A stretch of DNA of 51,159 nt from Nocardia pseudovaccinii NBRC 100343. Lineage in GTDB: Bacteria > Actinomycetota > Actinomycetes > Mycobacteriales > Mycobacteriaceae. The DNA lies in contig NZ_BDBY01000024.1 in the NCBI RefSeq assembly GCF_001613225.1, positions 1 through 51,159 of the forward strand, read 5' to 3'. A model generated the notes under the pieces. That model made no database searches. It saw only the letters and a list, made by a program, of their open reading frames with translations, and was not told where the DNA came from. Below, in pieces: positions 1-7,018 of this stretch (the first letter of the stretch is position 1; the number at the start of each line of letters is the position of its first letter). A program made the position numbers and the translations under genes.

Positions 1-1532
1 AAGCGGTCGGCGAGGCCGTTCTCGATGGCCTGTTCGGAGACGAAGTGCAACGAGGTCGCGGCGGCGGCCAGCGGTGCGGCACCGAACATGGGGCGCGGCA
101 ACACCGGCTGCGGCGTGGGGATGGAGGCGTTGGCATCGCCCATGGCGGCCCAGGCGATCGCGCCGCCCTTGAGGACGGCATGCGGGCGGACACCGAAGAA
201 CGCCGGATCCCACAGCACGAGGTCGGCGAGCTTGCCCACCTCCACCGAACCGATTTCGTGGTCGAGTCCGTGGGCAATGGCCGGGCAGATGGTGTATTTC
301 GCGATGTAGCGCCGCACGCGGGCGTTGTCGGCGGCGCCGTCGCCGGCCAGCGCACCGCGGCGGCGCTTCATGACGTGCGCGGTCTGCCAGGTGCGCATGA
401 CGACCTCGCCGATGCGGCCCATGGCCTGGGAGTCGCTGCCGATCATGGAAATCGCGCCGAGATCGTGCAGCAGATCCTCGGCGGCGATGGTGGAGGGTCG
501 AATTCGACTCTCCGCGAAGGCGAGATCCTCCGGGATGGACGCGCTGAGGTGATGGCACACCATGAGCATGTCCAGGTGCTCGTCCAAGGTATTGACGGTA
601 TGCGGACGGGTCGGGTTGGTCGAACTGGGCAGCACATTGAGATGTGCGGCGACGGTGATGATGTCGGGTGCGTGCCCGCCGCCCGCGCCCTCGGTGTGGT
701 ACGCGTGGATGCCGCGGCCCGCGATGGCGGCGAGCGTGTCCTCGACGAATCCGGCTTCGTTCAAGGTGTCCGAGTGCAGCGCCACTTGTACACCCGCCGC
801 ATCGGCGACGGTGAGGCAGGCATCGATGGCGGCCGGAGTGGAACCCCAGTCCTCGTGCAGCTTGAAACCCGCCGCGCCACCGCGCAATTGCTCCCACATG
901 GATTCGGCGCTGACGGTATTGCCCTTGCCCAGCAACACGATATTCATCGGCCAGGCGTCGGTGGCCTCCAACATCCGGGCCAGATGCCAGGATCCGGGCG
1001 TCACGGTGGTCGCCTTGCTGCCCTCGGCCGGGCCGGTGCCGCCGCCGATCAATGTAGTGATGCCGCCGCCGAGTGCCTCGTCCATCAGCTGCGGACAGAT
1101 GAAGTGCACATGACAGTCGATGGCGCCCGCGGTGAGGATCCGGCCGTTGCCCGCGATGATCTCGGTATTCGGGCCGACCACCAGATCCGGATGCACTCCG
1201 TTCATGGTGTCCGGATTGCCCGCCTTGCCGACGGCACTGATGCGGCCGTCGCGAATTCCCACGTCGGCCTTGATGATTCCCCAGTGATCGATGATGACCA
1301 CGCCGGTGATGACGGTGTCGGGGGTGCCGTCGGCGCGGGTCGCGCGGGCCTGGCCCATGGATTCGCGCAGCACCTTGCCGCCGCCGAAGACGGCCTCATC
1401 GCCGGCGAGTCCCGGTCCGCCGCTGCGGTCTTCGGTGATCTCGATCAGCAGATCGGTATCCGCCAGGCGAATTCGGTCGCCGGTGGTCGGGCCGAACAGC
1501 TCGGCGTAGCGCGCGCGGCTCAGCTCACTCAA
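1..1532 (-). CDS. ureC: Urease subunit alpha, 3' end beyond the window
   Basis: Catalytic nickel subunit of urease, hydrolysing urea to ammonia and carbamate in the cytoplasm. Reading the minus strand I see the nickel-site motif [13 protein letters not shown] (near 1087-1128), the carbamylated-lysine motif [12 protein letters not shown] (near 840-885) and the active-site flap region MVCHHLSAS (near 540-565). About 510 codons are present; the family has about 570, so roughly 60 C-terminal codons lie left of base 1. The chosen start is TTG at 1532, overlapping the ureB stop (TTGA) and giving the N-terminus [20 protein letters not shown], normal for UreC. It is the third gene of ureA-ureB-ureC. 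The accessory genes (ureF, ureG, ureD) are not visible and probably follow to the left. Identification is secure. Confidence 0.96.
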
Positions 1533-1846
1533 GACGCACCGTCCAAACGTCCGGGGGGATTCAGGCCGATGCCGTGCACCTCGCGCGCACCGCCCAGCGG
1601 AATCAGCGAAACCCTTTGGCCGAGACCGGGTTCGAAGCGCACTGCGGTACCGGCGGGAATATCGAGCCGACGTCCGTGCGCGGCGTGTCGATCGAAACGC
1701 AGCACGGCATTGGCCTGCGGGAAATGCACATGGCTGCCGACCTGGACCGGTCGGTCACCGGTATTCACGACATCGAGCTCGATGCGGTCGGCGCCCGCGT
1801 TCAGCTCGATAGTGCCCTCGGCGCAGAGGTATTCACCCGGAATCAT
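1529..1846 (-). CDS. ureB: Urease subunit beta
   Basis: Small structural subunit of urease, 105 residues, close to the usual length. It starts [18 protein letters not shown] and carries the conserved block [20 protein letters not shown], typical of UreB. ATG at 1846 is preferred over an upstream in-frame ATG because it matches the family N-terminus and lies 7 bases after the ureA stop. Its stop overlaps the TTG start of ureC, so the three subunits are translationally coupled. The C-terminus ends shortly after a [12 protein letters not shown] segment. Confidence 0.96.
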
Positions 1847-1853
1847 GGTCGCC

Positions 1854-2156
1854 CTAGCCGATCGGATGGTGGACGGTGACCAGCTTGGTGCCATCCGGGA
1901 AGGTGGCCTCGACCTGCACGTCGTGGATCATCTCCGGCACCCCTTCCATCACATCGGCACGCGTGAGAACCGTTCGCCCCGAAGACATCAGCTCCGCGAC
2001 CGTGCGCCCGTCGCGCGCACCCTCGAGCACATGATCGGTGATCAGCGCGACCGCCTCCGGATGGTTCAGCTCGAGCCCGCGCGCCTGCCTGCGTCGGGCC
2101 AGTTCGGCCGCGTAGCTCAGCAGCAGCCGTTCCTGCTCGTGCGGCGACAGTCGCAT
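1854..2156 (-). CDS. ureA: Urease subunit gamma
   Basis: Gamma subunit of urease, 100 residues, full length for the family. Recognisable blocks are [20 protein letters not shown] at the N-terminus, [20 protein letters not shown] in the middle, and [20 protein letters not shown] at the end. A GAGGAG ribosome binding site sits just upstream of the ATG. It is the first urease gene, 67 bases downstream of the thioesterase gene on the same strand, an arrangement shared with M. tuberculosis Rv1847-ureA. Confidence 0.97.
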
Positions 2157-2223: not shown

Positions 2224-2679
2224 TCAATCCCGGGCGGGCAGGTTCTGCAGCCGCACCTGGCCACGCGCCACCGTGCGACCCTCGCCATCGGTGAGCACGA
2301 CCTGCCACAGCTGCTGCAAGCGGCCGCGGTGCAGCGGCGTCGCCTCGCCGAAGACCTTGCCCTCGCGGACCGAGCGCAGGAAGTCGGTGTTGTTGTTCAC
2401 CCCGACCACGGTGCCCTTATTGCCCTGGGCGTTGTACCAGACCCCACCCCCGACGCTTGCCAGCGTTTCGACAACCGTGCAGTACACGCCGCCGTTGACA
2501 ATGCCTGCCAGCTGCAGCAACTGCGGCCCCGCGGTCAACTCGCCGCGCACCCGATCCGGCGTCACCTCGGTGAATTCGAGGCCGATCAGATCGGTGAAGG
2601 TGTTCTTGCTGAGCTCGGTCATCAGCTCGGGCGTCACGTCGGCCAGCGACTCGAACTGGGCAACTTCCTGCTGTGTCAT
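2224..2679 (-). CDS. PaaI-family hotdog-fold thioesterase (Rv1847-like)
   Basis: A 151-residue single-domain hotdog protein predicted to hydrolyse acyl-CoA thioesters in the cytoplasm; the substrate is unknown. The diagnostic part is the helix and turn around residues 55-75 (LLQLAGIVNGGVYCTVVETLASVGG), matching the PaaI pattern in which an H/N-G-G turn precedes a catalytic acid. The remainder is beta-rich (GTVVGVNNNTDFLRSVREGK). An AAGGTG ribosome binding site precedes the ATG. It lies 67 bases upstream of ureA on the same strand, as Rv1847 does in M. tuberculosis, so it may be the first annotated gene of the urease transcript. A small ORF ends inside its start codon, and an iron-box promoter lies further upstream. 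Confidence 0.88.
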   Translation of the reverse strand: MTQQEVAQFESLADVTPELMTELSKNTFTDLIGLEFTEVTPDRVRGELTAGPQLLQLAGIVNGGVYCTVVETLASVGGGVWYNAQGNKGTVVGVNNNTDFLRSVREGKVFGEATPLHRGRLQQLWQVVLTDGEGRTVARGQVRLQNLPARD

Positions 2680-2807
2680 GCATTCACCTTGACACAGGGC
2701 ATCCTGGCCCTCGCACGACGGCTACTTCCCGGCGTTCGCTCGCCGAGACAGAGCGGCGGGCTCCACACGCACATGGAGCCCGCCGCGGCAGTGGATCGGG
2801 GGTTCAC
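2676..2807 (-). CDS. Possible 43-residue leader ORF overlapping the thioesterase start
   Basis: GTG at 2807 is preceded by a good GGAGGG ribosome binding site. The frame runs 43 codons and ends at a TGA overlapping the thioesterase ATG (ATGA), which would couple translation. The peptide begins MNPRSTAAAGSMCVWSPPLC and has four cysteines. It contains no recognised domain. Its coding sequence includes the strong 2753-2786 hairpin, so it could be a leader peptide or a chance frame. Confidence 0.3.
   Translation of the reverse strand: MNPRSTAAAGSMCVWSPPLCLGERTPGSSRRARARMPCVKVNA
2753..2786 (-). terminator. Strong 13-bp hairpin downstream of an iron-box promoter
   Basis: Perfect inverted repeat GCGGCGGGCTCCA / TGGAGCCCGCCGC with an 8-base loop. 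On the minus strand it is followed by TCTGTCTC, a weak pyrimidine tail. It lies about 55-90 bases downstream of the predicted start of the minus-strand iron-regulated promoter. It could be a terminator, an attenuator or the 3' end of a small RNA. Confidence 0.5.
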
Positions 2808-2849
2808 GGCAGCCCTCCGGAACACTCGGCCGATCCCAACGCCGAAATT

Positions 2850-2879
2850 ATTATAGGTCAGGCTTACCTAAGTAGGCAA
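2850..2879 (-). promoter_or_regulatory. Predicted minus-strand promoter under an iron box
   Basis: On the minus strand there is a perfect TATAAT -10 (2855-2850) with TTGCCT (2879-2874) 18 bases upstream as a possible -35. A consensus -10 is unusual in DNA this GC-rich. The IdeR-like box at 2853-2871 fills the spacer and most of the -10, the classic position for repression. The predicted start is near 2842, reading toward the thioesterase and urease genes. Confidence 0.6.
2853..2871. promoter_or_regulatory. IdeR/DtxR-type iron box 1
   Basis: ATAGGTCAGGCTTACCTAA matches the mycobacterial IdeR consensus TTAGGTTAGGCTAACCTAA at 16 of 19 positions. Family knowledge: Fe2+-IdeR binds such boxes and usually represses iron-acquisition genes. 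The gene-free stretch 2880-3103 to its right holds no convincing plus-strand gene, so the likely target is the minus strand to the left. Confidence 0.72.
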
Positions 2880-3103: not shown

Positions 3104-3817
3104 TTATCGAACCAAGCAACCCACAACGCGTCGCACGGGCAAACCACGCTCTTCCAGCGTCGACAGCAACCCCTCACCCCGGCGCGCACCGACCAGCGAA
3201 TCCGTCCGCGCCAGATCCGGCACGTAAGTGGCTGCGCCCACAATCGATTCACCGACCAGCGACCAGAACCGACGCTCACCGAGGCCCGCGCAACCCGCCA
3301 ATGTCCGCTGGATCAACCGCAACGACGGCTCACACCGATGCGCGAGCCAGACGTACATCGCCCGCTCGCACGGCAACGTGACCACACCAGCCTCCCCTAC
3401 CAGCCGATCACCGTCGAGCACCCGAATCGTGGTATCCGCCAGGCCCGCCCAGTCGATGCCGCCGTCATTGTCGGTGTGCAGCCACAGATTCTCGAGACCC
3501 GGATCCCAGACCCGCCCCTCGGCCACCAGGAGCGCGACCACCCGGCCGATCACCGCGTGGATCAGCGCGGTCGCCACCACCTCGGCGGCGGTATCGGCGC
3601 TGATCATCTCCGCGGCATGCCGCCGATACATCAGCTCGATCCGTCCCTCGCGCAATCCGTCGGCCAGCCGCCACCAGCGCCGTTTGCCCTGTTCAGACAT
3701 GGCGGCGACGGCATATACCCGCGGATGTTCGGGTTGCAACGAGCGCAACCGGGCACAGGCCCTACCGAATGCCACCTGGGACTGGCGAGGCATGTAGGTC
3801 GTGACTGGCTCGGACAT
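3104..3817 (-). CDS. FhuF-like ferric/siderophore reductase family protein, iron-sulfur motif apparently missing
   Basis: A 237-residue protein of the FhuF/IucA-IucC C-terminal type, which in other bacteria reduces ferric siderophores in the cytoplasm with a C-terminal 2Fe-2S cluster. The body shows family-like stretches such as LIHAVIGRVVALLVAEGRV and ENLWLHTDNDGGIDWAGL. The family normally ends with a CC-x10-C-x2-C cluster beginning like RRxxCCLYYR. Here it ends LPVRRVVGCLVR followed by TAA: one cysteine of the pair is glycine and the remainder is absent. A CxxC lies about 85 bases beyond the stop, in another frame. GAGGAGG precedes the ATG. It is divergent from the FecCD genes across iron box 2, which supports an iron-uptake role. 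Family assignment is moderate and activity is doubtful. Confidence 0.7.
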   Translation of the reverse strand: MSEPVTTYMPRQSQVAFGRACARLRSLQPEHPRVYAVAAMSEQGKRRWWRLADGLREGRIELMYRRHAAEMISADTAAEVVATALIHAVIGRVVALLVAEGRVWDPGLENLWLHTDNDGGIDWAGLADTTIRVLDGDRLVGEAGVVTLPCERAMYVWLAHRCEPSLRLIQRTLAGCAGLGERRFWSLVGESIVGAATYVPDLARTDSLVGARRGEGLLSTLEERGLPVRRVVGCLVR

Positions 3818-3860
3818 CGAACCTCCTCGGGTCGGCTCCGTGATGGGTCGGATTGAAAAG

Positions 3861-3879
3861 ATAGGTTAGGCTTACCAGA
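3861..3879. promoter_or_regulatory. IdeR/DtxR-type iron box 2 in a divergent promoter
   Basis: ATAGGTTAGGCTTACCAGA matches the IdeR consensus at 15 of 19 positions, with an intact left half. It sits between the FhuF-like gene (minus) and the permease gene (plus). On the minus strand TTGCTA and TATCTT, 18 bases apart, flank it as a possible promoter, the same geometry as box 1. Likely iron-dependent control of both directions. Confidence 0.72.
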
Positions 3880-3925
3880 CCTAGCAATCGGATACCAGCT
3901 ATCCAGTCAGGAGTAGTTCGTCGCC

Positions 3926-4999
3926 GTGACGGCATCAGGCACCATCGCGCCGGGGGCGCGACGAACGAACACGGCGCGCCATCGTCGGCTCGGACTCGTC
4001 GCGTTGACCGCACTGCTCCTCATCGCCACCGTGGCCAGCATCGCCATCGGCACCCGATCACTGTCGCCCGGCACCGTCTACGACGCCGTGCACGATGCCC
4101 TCAGCTGCCCGGGCGGGCCGTTCACCTGTCCCGCCGGGTCGACCGCGGAGGAGATCGTGCGCGGACTTCGCTTGCCGCGCACCGCACTCGGGCTGGTCAC
4201 CGGGCTCGCGCTCGGCATCGCGGGCGCGCTGATCCAGGGCTACACCCGCAACCCACTCGCCGACGCGGGCCTGCTCGGTCTGAACGCGGGCGCGGCCTTC
4301 CTTGCGGCACTGAGCATTTACCTTTTCGCGCTGACCGCACCTGAGCAGTACATCTGGTTCGCCTTCGCGGGTGCGCTGATCGCCGGGCTGGTGGTGTTCG
4401 GCGTGTCCGCGATCGGCGGTGGCAAGGCGAGTCCGCTCAGCCTGGTGCTGGCCGGCGCCGCGGTGACCGCATTCCTGCAGGCGATGACGAATGCCATTGT
4501 GCTCATGGACAATGCCGCGCTGGACACCTACCGATTCTGGGTGGTCGGAACGGTGAACGGGCGCGACGCCGAGGTGTTCTGGCAGGTGCTGCCGTTCTTG
4601 GCGAGCGGCGTCGTGCTGGCCGTCGCGGCTGCGCCGGGCCTGAATCTGCTGAGCCTCGGTGACGAGGTCGCGCGTGGACTCGGGGTGCATATCGGACGCA
4701 GCCGCGCGCTCGGCCTGGCGGCGATCGTATTGCTGTGCGGCGCCGCGACAGCGGCGGTCGGCCCGATCGCGTTCATCGGATTGATAGTGCCGCATGTCGC
4801 AAGGGTTTTCACCGGTCCCGACTATCGCTGGCTGATCCCGTACTCCGGACTGCTCGGAGCATTGCTGCTGCTCGTCGCCGATGTGGTCGGGCGAATTGTG
4901 GCGCGACCGGGCGAAGTACAGGTCGGCGTGATGATCTCGGCCCTGGGTGCACCGTTCTTCATTCTGCTCGTTCGTCGCAAGAAGTTGGTGAGCCTGTGA
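3926..4999 (+). CDS. FecCD-family ABC transporter permease 1 (iron-siderophore)
   Basis: A 357-residue polytopic membrane protein of the FecCD/BtuC permease family. It forms half of the channel that imports ferric siderophore (or a related chelate) across the plasma membrane. Features are an N-terminal membrane segment near residues 18-40, the family block LRLPRTALGLVTGLALGIAGALIQ near residue 80, and the ending PFFILLVRRKK. GTG at 3926 follows iron box 2 by about 45 bases, giving the basic N-terminus MTASGTIAPGARRTN. The second permease follows after 55 bases. No substrate-binding lipoprotein gene is nearby. Confidence 0.93.
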   Translation: MTASGTIAPGARRTNTARHRRLGLVALTALLLIATVASIAIGTRSLSPGTVYDAVHDALSCPGGPFTCPAGSTAEEIVRGLRLPRTALGLVTGLALGIAGALIQGYTRNPLADAGLLGLNAGAAFLAALSIYLFALTAPEQYIWFAFAGALIAGLVVFGVSAIGGGKASPLSLVLAGAAVTAFLQAMTNAIVLMDNAALDTYRFWVVGTVNGRDAEVFWQVLPFLASGVVLAVAAAPGLNLLSLGDEVARGLGVHIGRSRALGLAAIVLLCGAATAAVGPIAFIGLIVPHVARVFTGPDYRWLIPYSGLLGALLLLVADVVGRIVARPGEVQVGVMISALGAPFFILLVRRKKLVSL

Positions 5000-5054
5000 G
5001 GGAGATGTCACCGCGATCGCCGCGCACGAATTCGCGGGCCACCGGGGAGCATCC

Positions 5055-6206
5055 ATGAGCGAACGAATCATGGACGCAATCTCCCCGGACAGCACCGCGA
5101 CCGGGCCTGGCGGTACTCCGTCGGCAGCGCCGTTGCGCCGCCTCCGCCCCGCCTTGCGCCTCGGTCCGGTGTCGATTGTGTCGCGCCCCACCATGGCGCT
5201 CATCATTCTGGCGCTCGCCGCGACTGTGCTCACGCTGTTCTGCCTCGATATCGCCTTCGGCGACACCCACATTCCGATCGGCCGAGTACTCGATGTCCTC
5301 GGCGGCGGCGGCACTCGATCCCAGCGCTTCATCGTGCTGGAGTCTCGATTGCCGCGCGCGCTCACCGCCGCGGTCGTCGGTGCGGCACTCGGCATCGCGG
5401 GTGCGATCACCCAATCGATCCTGCACAACCCGCTCGCCGCACCGGATATGCTCGGCATCACCACCGGCTCGAGCCTCGGGGCGGTCGCGGTACTGGTCGG
5501 AACCGGCGGCGCGACAACGGGACTCGCCGCGAGCGTCGGCACACCACTGGCAGCGCTGACCGGCGGTCTGCTCACCGCGATCGTGATCTACCTCCTCGCC
5601 TGGGGTCGCAGCGTGACCGGCGACCGCGGCGTCACGCCGATGCGACTGGTGCTGATCGGCATCGGTGTGAACGCACTCTTGTTGTCCGGCATCAGCTTTC
5701 TGCTCACCCGCGCCAGCCTGCAGGACGCGGCACGCGCGCAACTCTGGCTCAATGGCTCGCTCAACAGCGCGGACCGCACGAAACTCGTCCCGGCCGCGCT
5801 GGCCCTGGCCACAGTCGTCGTGGTCGCGGTGGGCTCCGCGCGAACCCTTGCCGCACTCCGTCTCGGCACCGACACTACCCGCGTGCTCGGCGTGCGGATC
5901 CAGACCCAGCAGACGCTATTGATCGGCGCAGCCGTCGTGGCCGCGTCCGTCGCCACGGCGGCTGTCGGCCCGGTCACTTTTGTGGCGCTCGCCGCACCGC
6001 AGATCGCACGCCGACTGCTGCGAACTCCCGGCGAACCACTCATCGGCTCCGCGCTCATCGGTGCCATCCTGGTAGTCGGCGCGGATGTGGCCTCGCGCAC
6101 GCTTTTCCCGGTCGATCTGCCGGTCGGTGTGGTGACCGCGGCCTTCGGCGGACCGTTCCTGCTCTACCTGCTCGTGCGTATGAATCGGAAGGCGACCCTG
6201 TCATGA
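5055..6206 (+). CDS. FecCD-family ABC transporter permease 2 (iron-siderophore)
   Basis: A 383-residue second permease of the same importer, predicted to pair with the product of 3926-4999. It has a hydrophilic N-terminus of about 45 residues, then about ten membrane segments. The FecCD signature appears as LESRLPRALTAAVVGAALGI and GAITQSILHNPLAAPDMLG, and it ends GGPFLLYLLVRMNRK. ATG at 5055 follows a GGGGAGC motif. Its stop overlaps the ATPase start (ATGA), showing coupled translation. Confidence 0.93.
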   Translation: MSERIMDAISPDSTATGPGGTPSAAPLRRLRPALRLGPVSIVSRPTMALIILALAATVLTLFCLDIAFGDTHIPIGRVLDVLGGGGTRSQRFIVLESRLPRALTAAVVGAALGIAGAITQSILHNPLAAPDMLGITTGSSLGAVAVLVGTGGATTGLAASVGTPLAALTGGLLTAIVIYLLAWGRSVTGDRGVTPMRLVLIGIGVNALLLSGISFLLTRASLQDAARAQLWLNGSLNSADRTKLVPAALALATVVVVAVGSARTLAALRLGTDTTRVLGVRIQTQQTLLIGAAVVAASVATAAVGPVTFVALAAPQIARRLLRTPGEPLIGSALIGAILVVGADVASRTLFPVDLPVGVVTAAFGGPFLLYLLVRMNRKATLS

Positions 6207-7018
6207 CCAGCGATGCGCGGCTCTCCGCACAGGAAGTCACCCTCGGCTACGGCGACCGCGTCATCGTCGACGGCCTCGATATCGATATCGCACCCGGCGT
6301 CGTCACCACCGTCATCGGCCCCAACGGCTGTGGCAAGTCGACCATGCTGCGCTCGCTCGGGCGACTGCTGCGTCCGCGGCAGGGGCGAATCCTGTTGGAC
6401 GGCAAGGCGATTTCGACGATGAAGACCAAGGATGTGGCACGCGTCATCGGCATGCTCCCGCAGTCGCCGGTCGCGCCCGAGGGCCTCACCGTCGCGGATC
6501 TCGTTGCGCGCGGGCGTCATCCGCATCAGTCCTGGATAAGGCAGTGGTCGGTCACCGACGAGGCCGAGGTCATGTCCGCACTCGCGGCGACGGGCATCGC
6601 CGACCTGGCCGATCGTTCACTCGACGAGTTGTCCGGCGGTCAGCGCCAGCGCGCCTGGATCTCCATGGCATTGGCCCAGGGCACCGATATCTTGCTGCTC
6701 GACGAGCCGACCACCTACCTCGACCTCGCCCATTCGGTCGAGGTACTGGACCTGATCGACCGGCTGCACGACGACCTCGGCCGCACCGTGGTGATGGTGC
6801 TGCACGATCTCAACCTGGCCATTCGCTACAGCGACCGACTCATCGTCATGCGCGACGGGCGCATCGTCGCCCAGGGCGCGCCCGCCGATATCATCGATGC
6901 CGCCCTGCTGCGCGAGGTCTTCGATCTCGACGCCTCGGTCCTCGAGGATCCGGTCTCCGGCCGTCCGATGATCGTGCCCATCGGAACCCGGCACGTTTTG
7001 CCCGGGTATGACAAATGA
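6203..7018 (+). CDS. ABC transporter ATP-binding protein (FecE/FepC-like)
   Basis: A 271-residue cytoplasmic ATPase that powers the FecCD importer. It has a complete motif set: Walker A GPNGCGKST near residue 39, signature LSGGQRQRAWI near 145, Walker B ILLLDEPTTYLDLA near 168, and the switch-region motif MVLHDLNLA near 200. Length and order are typical of FepC/FecE. It is coupled to the second permease by a 4-base overlap and is the last gene of the iron-box operon; the BlaI gene follows after 71 bases with its own promoter. Confidence 0.94.
   Translation: MTSDARLSAQEVTLGYGDRVIVDGLDIDIAPGVVTTVIGPNGCGKSTMLRSLGRLLRPRQGRILLDGKAISTMKTKDVARVIGMLPQSPVAPEGLTVADLVARGRHPHQSWIRQWSVTDEAEVMSALAATGIADLADRSLDELSGGQRQRAWISMALAQGTDILLLDEPTTYLDLAHSVEVLDLIDRLHDDLGRTVVMVLHDLNLAIRYSDRLIVMRDGRIVAQGAPADIIDAALLREVFDLDASVLEDPVSGRPMIVPIGTRHVLPGYDK

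Follow-up and report, generated by a model that had tools for sequence, protein, structure and literature searches.

Positions 2742–2879 on the minus strand probably encode, together with its promoter, an independent MrsI-type small RNA about 100 nt long, which would be repressed by IdeR in the presence of iron and would lower aconitase through pairing of its loop. The window (the whole 51,159-nt stretch of Nocardia DNA analysed here) comes from a 9.9-Mb genome in 492 contigs. The sequence evidence consists of a promoter with an IdeR box, a single copy in each genome, independence of the neighbouring thioesterase gene, covarying stems, and a covarying hairpin in the acnA leader that carries the complement of the RNA's loop. 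Transcription, repression by IdeR, and loop–loop pairing are what we infer from it, and the direction of the effect (aconitase down) is likely by analogy with published mycobacterial MrsI. The MrsI kind, to which this RNA belongs, is already known. New here are its family-wide spread with no credible match outside, its independence from the thioesterase gene, a near-constant loop, a loop–loop site in an acnA hairpin, and leuC as a likely extra target.

Two reviews describe MrsI (ncRv11846) of M. tuberculosis as a 100–106-nt RNA with an IdeR box, encoded between blaI and Rv1847; it has a 6–8-nt seed and a 7-nt apical loop, and lowers bfrA, fprA, and hypF (PMC8628891; PMC11188477). Neither Rv1846 nor Rv1847 is mentioned in the main text of a comparative study of actinobacteria from 2012 (PMC3388012). 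Within the open-licence literature, whose silence is weak evidence of absence, we found no paper that places MrsI in Nocardia or that describes loop–loop pairing for MrsI.

The promoter region of the window contains three elements:

2874..2879, minus strand: −35 element TTGCCT (promoter scan)
2853..2871, no strand assigned: IdeR box (16/19) lying across most of the spacer and three bases of the −10 element; kept in relatives
2850..2855, minus strand: −10 element TATAAT (promoter scan)

The TTGCCT/TATAAT pair, with its 18-nt spacer, scores 10/12 (mean 0.0 in shuffles) and is the only promoter-like site that the scan found in 2600–2950, which bears out the original prediction of a minus-strand TATAAT with TTGCCT 18 bases upstream. 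The IdeR box has three mismatches to TTAGGTTAGGCTAACCTAA and is the sole match that good in the window. No box with three or fewer mismatches to TTAGGTTAGGCTAACCTAA appeared in 100 shuffles of the window, and in 60 equally long Markov windows the top box per window reached 11–14 of 19. The predicted 16/19 score and overlap with the spacer hold, the box covering most of the spacer; its claimed cover of most of the −10 element does not, as only half of that element (three bases) is overlapped.

The box also recurs in related genomes, where nearly all readable loci have one of at least 13/19 upstream of the RNA. Of 30 genus loci tried, 28 could be read and 27 have such a box. In the family set, where five genomes are entered twice and some belong to the window's own genus, 48 loci were tried and all 47 readable ones have it; among the 80 named loci tried, from the matches listed, it is present in 76 of the 77 that could be read. 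A motif search found box and RNA body together in 27 of the first 30 genus loci, and the window shares its promoter wording with a named Nocardia locus (L102). Locus L017 retains the RNA with a shortened box, a natural variant that is three bases short. At L124 the box is interrupted by three extra bases, and the terminator hairpin looks lost.

Downstream of the promoter lie the predicted RNA and its structural elements:

2742..2843, minus strand: predicted MrsI-type small RNA of about 100 nt (E 1.7e-13 with the covariance model)
2793..2836, minus strand: outer stem, 2836–2831 paired with 2798–2793 (covariation)
2802..2823, minus strand: inner hairpin with the apical loop AGGGCUG, the predicted seed, at 2816–2810 (covariation)
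2753..2786, minus strand: terminator-like hairpin of 14 bp with a weak T tail (fold and compensatory changes)

The start at 2843 is predicted from the −10 element and the conservation of GGCGT. At E values up to 1, the covariance model matches its own genome at 2742..2843 only. For the leader, the folding energy is −81 kcal/mol; its shuffled versions average −71 (z −2.6). A strong minus-strand hairpin is present downstream, as had been claimed, though with 14 bp in the fold rather than 13; a terminator scan found no T run after it (2786–2753), and it carries compensatory changes within the genus. In much of the genus the 5′ arm of this hairpin (2753–2786) reads GCUCCAC, the complement of a GUGGAGC at the acnA ribosome site (L298–L317), and is buried in the strong stem.

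Fifty sequences of the 5′ domain (alignment A2; 14 from the genus, 19 from other genera, and 17 named) share one structure, with an outer stem, an inner stem, and a 3-bp stem that closes the loop. Within A2, 95.3% of cells pair, compared with 27–47% in slid versions of the alignment, and no shuffle matches the observed covariation. The loop reads AGGGCUG across the rows (UGGGCUG in one). At the middle closing pair, 37 rows have UA, 11 have CG, and two have GC, the rare form that the window shows. The constancy of the loop and the 100% apical pairing are partly by construction, because the script that picked the rows demanded GGGCUGC with complementary closing triplets and the 17 named rows came through a pattern that fixes the loop. 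All 33 rows found by model or by neighbourhood nonetheless had the loop and triplets that the script demanded, and the kind of pair varies freely. In place of an inner helix proposed by RNAalifold on alignment A1, we adopted the stem indicated by variation across the family. Rfam 15 returned only sub-threshold matches at the RNA locus, none over the curated score, and no match at five leader loci of acnA, leuC, and bfrA. Conservation, covariation, MrsI synteny, and target complementarity strongly support the prediction that the promoter drives an iron-responsive small RNA, put at about 95 bases, ending at the hairpin.

Covariance model R1, built from 27 genus loci, has a single match per genome in 115 of the 118 genus genomes sampled, although in G004 and G086 the match is confined to the 5′ half. 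It finds nothing in G014 (78% complete), G031 (85% complete), and G054 (1340 contigs). Among 201 family genomes, those of the own genus included, R1 finds one copy each in 138, distributed over 20 of 31 genera, and a second model, R2, later found the RNA in genus g2. The MrsI-type RNA would thus reach at least 21 of the 31 genera of the family. Thirteen weak R2 matches in 30 genomes (E 0.1–5) were dropped; among the six looked at, the best upstream box reached 7–10 of 19. An order-level scan gave matches in 21 of 160 genomes. Nineteen were below 1e-7, all inside the family; two weak matches in other families (E 0.026 and 0.042) were read as chance on E-value, leaving no credible match outside the family among the 160. 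Named loci with the RNA number at least 80, from 116 stretches scanned, and the matches listed include Mycobacterium, Mycolicibacterium, Mycobacteroides, Gordonia, Williamsia, Rhodococcus, Prescottella, and Nocardia.

Three protein-coding neighbours follow the RNA in the window:

2224..2679, minus strand: 4HBT thioesterase gene
1854..2156, minus strand: ureA
1529..1894, minus strand: ureB

The thioesterase gene starts about 60 nt past the 3′ end of the model, and the original prediction offered, as its second option, an attenuated transcript running into the thioesterase and urease genes. The region would then be an iron-controlled leader with the hairpin as attenuator and urease under iron control. 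In the window, as in 64 of the 113 genus genomes that can be compared, the thioesterase gene does follow on the same strand at no more than 400 bp, and a hairpin without a T run makes read-through possible. The remaining 49 of the 113 copies argue otherwise, with 35 on the same strand but 0.96–3.1 kb away and 14 on the opposite strand. Promoter and RNA body travel together across genus loci and are kept in those 49 as well, and the conserved parts are the RNA's own loop and stems. A leader role is therefore not the general function, which leaves that option unsupported as such; we rejected a urease leader or attenuator as the main role and hold this reading to be very improbable. Because so many copies lie 1–3 kb from the thioesterase or opposite to it, the RNA is a gene of its own, and the thioesterase and urease genes are likely only neighbours. 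These counts derive from the 115 genus copies, of which 113 share a contig with the thioesterase (itself detected, with E no higher than 1e-30, in 115 of the 118 genomes) and lie on its upstream side in all 113. The genomes of L024 and L026 carry the RNA more than 2 kb from it.

Both activities could also coexist, the stand-alone small RNA being accompanied by read-through that renders the thioesterase iron-responsive wherever the arrangement is close. The 64 close same-strand copies in the genus fit this, as do 73 of the 80 named loci listed, in which the thioesterase lies on the same strand within 1 kb. The observed conservation does not need read-through, and we consider this dual arrangement, in which the thioesterase would respond to iron, possible but doubtful.

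In 19 other genera, represented by one locus each, the thioesterase is next on the same strand in 18, and g27 gave no match. blaR–blaI lies directly upstream and divergent in eight (g7, g9, g11, g13, g17, g19, g29, and g30), iron-uptake genes lie upstream of the RNA in the other 11, and ureA and ureB fall inside the 8-kb stretch in six of the 19. The 73 named loci with a close thioesterase have blaI divergent upstream in 32 and a FhuF-like gene upstream in 33; among the remaining named loci listed, five reach the edge of the stretch and two have the thioesterase farther off or absent. On the upstream side of the RNA, the window encodes a FhuF-like protein (weakly matched, under the Pfam cut-off) and a pair of FecCD permeases, together with an ABC ATPase, BlaI, and a protease of BlaR type. 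Here the first four, at 3104–7018, separate the RNA from blaI–blaR; this block was likely inserted or lost, because blaI adjoins the RNA directly in eight other genera. A second IdeR-like box (15/19) lies at 3861–3879, between the FhuF-like gene and a FecCD gene, which suggests that the uptake cluster next to the RNA is iron-controlled.

One further feature overlaps the RNA:

2676..2807, minus strand: 43-codon GTG ORF, likely chance (ORF list; length across genus loci)

This ORF had been described as having a good ribosome site and overlapping the thioesterase ATG. It exists and overlaps as described, with stop and start sharing 2676–2679, and GGAGGG precedes its GTG, as a translated leader peptide would have it. 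The supposed ribosome site, though, falls mostly inside the conserved apical loop of the RNA. Across 27 genus loci the ORF varies in length between 21 and at least 121 codons, the readings being unrelated, and two loci have no start; besides the window, only L004 (99% identity in the thioesterase) keeps 43 codons. We rejected a leader peptide on this lack of a kept length and regard translation of the ORF as extremely improbable; it looks like a product of chance.

The loop of the RNA points to aconitase. CAGCCC, the complement of AGGGCUG, occurs in 18 of 19 genus acnA leaders, against a mean of 1.7 over 210 permuted loops. Four of the 210 loop orders reach 18/19, namely the real one, one that shares GGGCUG, and two that read an adjacent AGCCCC. 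The control sets hold the loop complement in 0 of 30 thioesterase leaders and 1 of 22 ferritin leaders. A second aconitase-like gene (L302) was excluded from the acnA count, and the locus scored as a miss (L299) has its hairpin further upstream. The predicted contact between RNA and acnA comprises six pairs only, and duplex energies were uninformative for targets.

The acnA site lies about 42 nt before the start codon, mostly within an 8-nt loop on a 9-bp stem. In alignment A3 of this hairpin, whose rows were chosen by their CAGCCC, 95.6% of cells pair and six of the nine pairs show changes on both sides. CAGCCC is present in 46 of 60 scanned acnA loci, with an unpaired mean of 0.90 vs 0.42 (the best site being taken if there were several). 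A covariance model of the hairpin (R3) has its best place at the acnA leader in 15 of 15 genus genomes searched, 13 of which were not used to build it, and likewise in G167 (g29). In the RNA-less genomes G120, G134, and G169 and in G299 (g9), the best R3 hits looked at are not at acnA, and the part of the secondary R3 matches looked at gave no convincing further target.

RNA and acnA site also tend to occur together. Of 40 acnA loci read outside the genus, with g2 counted among those with the RNA after its R2 match, the site is present in 21 of 22 with the RNA vs 5 of 18 without it (Fisher p 8e-6, uncorrected for shared descent). These counts include L366 as having the site (AGCCCT at −63 and CAGCCU in a hairpin) and L377 as lacking it (no script-readable start and no CAGCCC in the stretch scanned). 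Genus g2 provided a small forward test, its acnA site having been noticed before its RNA was found. Neither RNA nor site was found at the loci of g3, g4, g5, g12, g14, and g18, and g19 has the RNA without the site. The converse, a site with no RNA found, occurs in g8 (twice), g15 (a genome 66% complete), g25, and g31. At five loci with an acnA site (L374, L375, L382, L383, and L384), neither RNA model gave a credible match. Such exceptions may reflect diverged or lost RNAs, the incomplete genome of g15, or another role of the hairpin. In the last case the acnA hairpin might be a protein-binding or self-regulatory element, with the loop match secondary or due to chance: hairpins with loops can bind proteins, and the hairpin stands without a detected RNA in g8, g15, g25, and g31. 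Against this, the site accompanies the RNA in 21 of 22 loci and stands without it in 5 of 18, and the same hexamer recurs in leuC leaders of the genus and bfrA leaders of mycobacteria (below). We judge a protein or self-regulatory element unlikely and favour the hairpin as partner of the RNA loop.

The Fe–S enzyme gene leuC is likely a second target in the genus, judging from its leaders. CAGCCC occurs in 16 of 29 (permuted mean 1.3), that of the window's own genome included and L297 left out. Inspection by eye of L268–L296 shows that the leuC CAGCCC is often flanked by short complementary CCGCG/CGCGG arms. Outside the genus, five of 19 readable leaders (27 loci) hold the site.

Mycobacterial bfrA, a reported target of MrsI, served as a positive control. 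Each genome contributed a single 80-nt leader, and 30 of 31 genomes gave a match. Of these leaders, 19 of 30 hold CAGCCC or AGCCCT, against a mean of 2.2 over 210 loop orders; the only other order to reach 19/30 shares the hexamer. With G–U pairs allowed, the figures are 26 of 30 vs 11.8. The nine bfrA leaders read in the genus show no conserved site, and bfrA was rejected as a target there on that ground. By eye, the bfd–bfrA operons of the genus (L227–L235) carry one or two IdeR-like boxes of their own just upstream of bfd. Iron control of bfrA in the genus seems to be promoter-based, given these boxes and the lack of a seed complement, and bfrA is likely a target in mycobacteria and not in this genus.

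The resemblance to MrsI as described in print includes an IdeR box at the promoter, a length of about 100 nt, a 7-nt apical loop (predicted here), and iron-enzyme targets (also predicted). Flanking BlaI-type and Rv1847-type thioesterase genes are shared in eight of 19 other genera and in 32 of the 80 named loci listed. This likeness is drawn from the published description rather than from the letters of the seed, and neither M. tuberculosis nor M. smegmatis is among the 80 named loci listed. The genus departs from MrsI in several respects. The thioesterase gene is adjacent in the window, but in the genus iron-uptake genes separate the RNA from blaI, and the RNA is often far from or opposite the thioesterase. 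The likely targets in the genus are acnA and leuC and not bfrA, and the acnA site sits in the loop of a covarying hairpin. As for the rho-independent terminator predicted for MrsI, the window has a strong, covarying hairpin, after which the scan found no T run.

In its predicted action the RNA also resembles RyhB, PrrF, FsrA, and IsrR, iron-repressed small RNAs directed against iron enzymes, aconitase included. According to the Staphylococcus IsrR paper, these RNAs share no synteny or sequence among themselves, and aconitase mRNA is a target of all the iron-sparing small RNAs discussed, MrsI included (PMC9410917). The present RNA differs in that the repressor would be IdeR and in that a 7-nt loop is predicted to meet the loop of a leader hairpin about 40 nt before the start codon.

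We propose that iron-loaded IdeR would sit across the spacer and three bases of the −10 element and so shut the promoter, as the position of the box and the MrsI reports suggest. When iron is scarce, an RNA of about 100 nt, ending at the hairpin, would be made. Its loop AGGGCUG would meet CAGCCC in the loop of the acnA leader through six predicted pairs, and this pairing may lower aconitase output by blocked initiation or by decay. More broadly, we conjecture, at roughly even chances, that the family spares iron through a chaperone-free RNA kiss between the near-invariant 7-nt loop of one IdeR-controlled small RNA and the complementary loop of a dedicated hairpin in the aconitase leader, in which the stems drift and the contact stays fixed, while further targets such as leuC (Nocardia) and bfrA (mycobacteria) are gained and lost.

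The analysis yields a covariance model for an RNA without an Rfam family and cautions that such loci are not to be taken for urease leaders. It takes MrsI beyond the mycobacteria, into no fewer than 21 of the family's 31 genera, with a near-constant seed loop and a structured partner in the acnA leader. According to the IsrR paper, M. tuberculosis is without Hfq (PMC9410917). Loop–loop pairing with a dedicated leader hairpin would offer a testable answer to how small RNAs find their targets in actinobacteria, where no Hfq is known.
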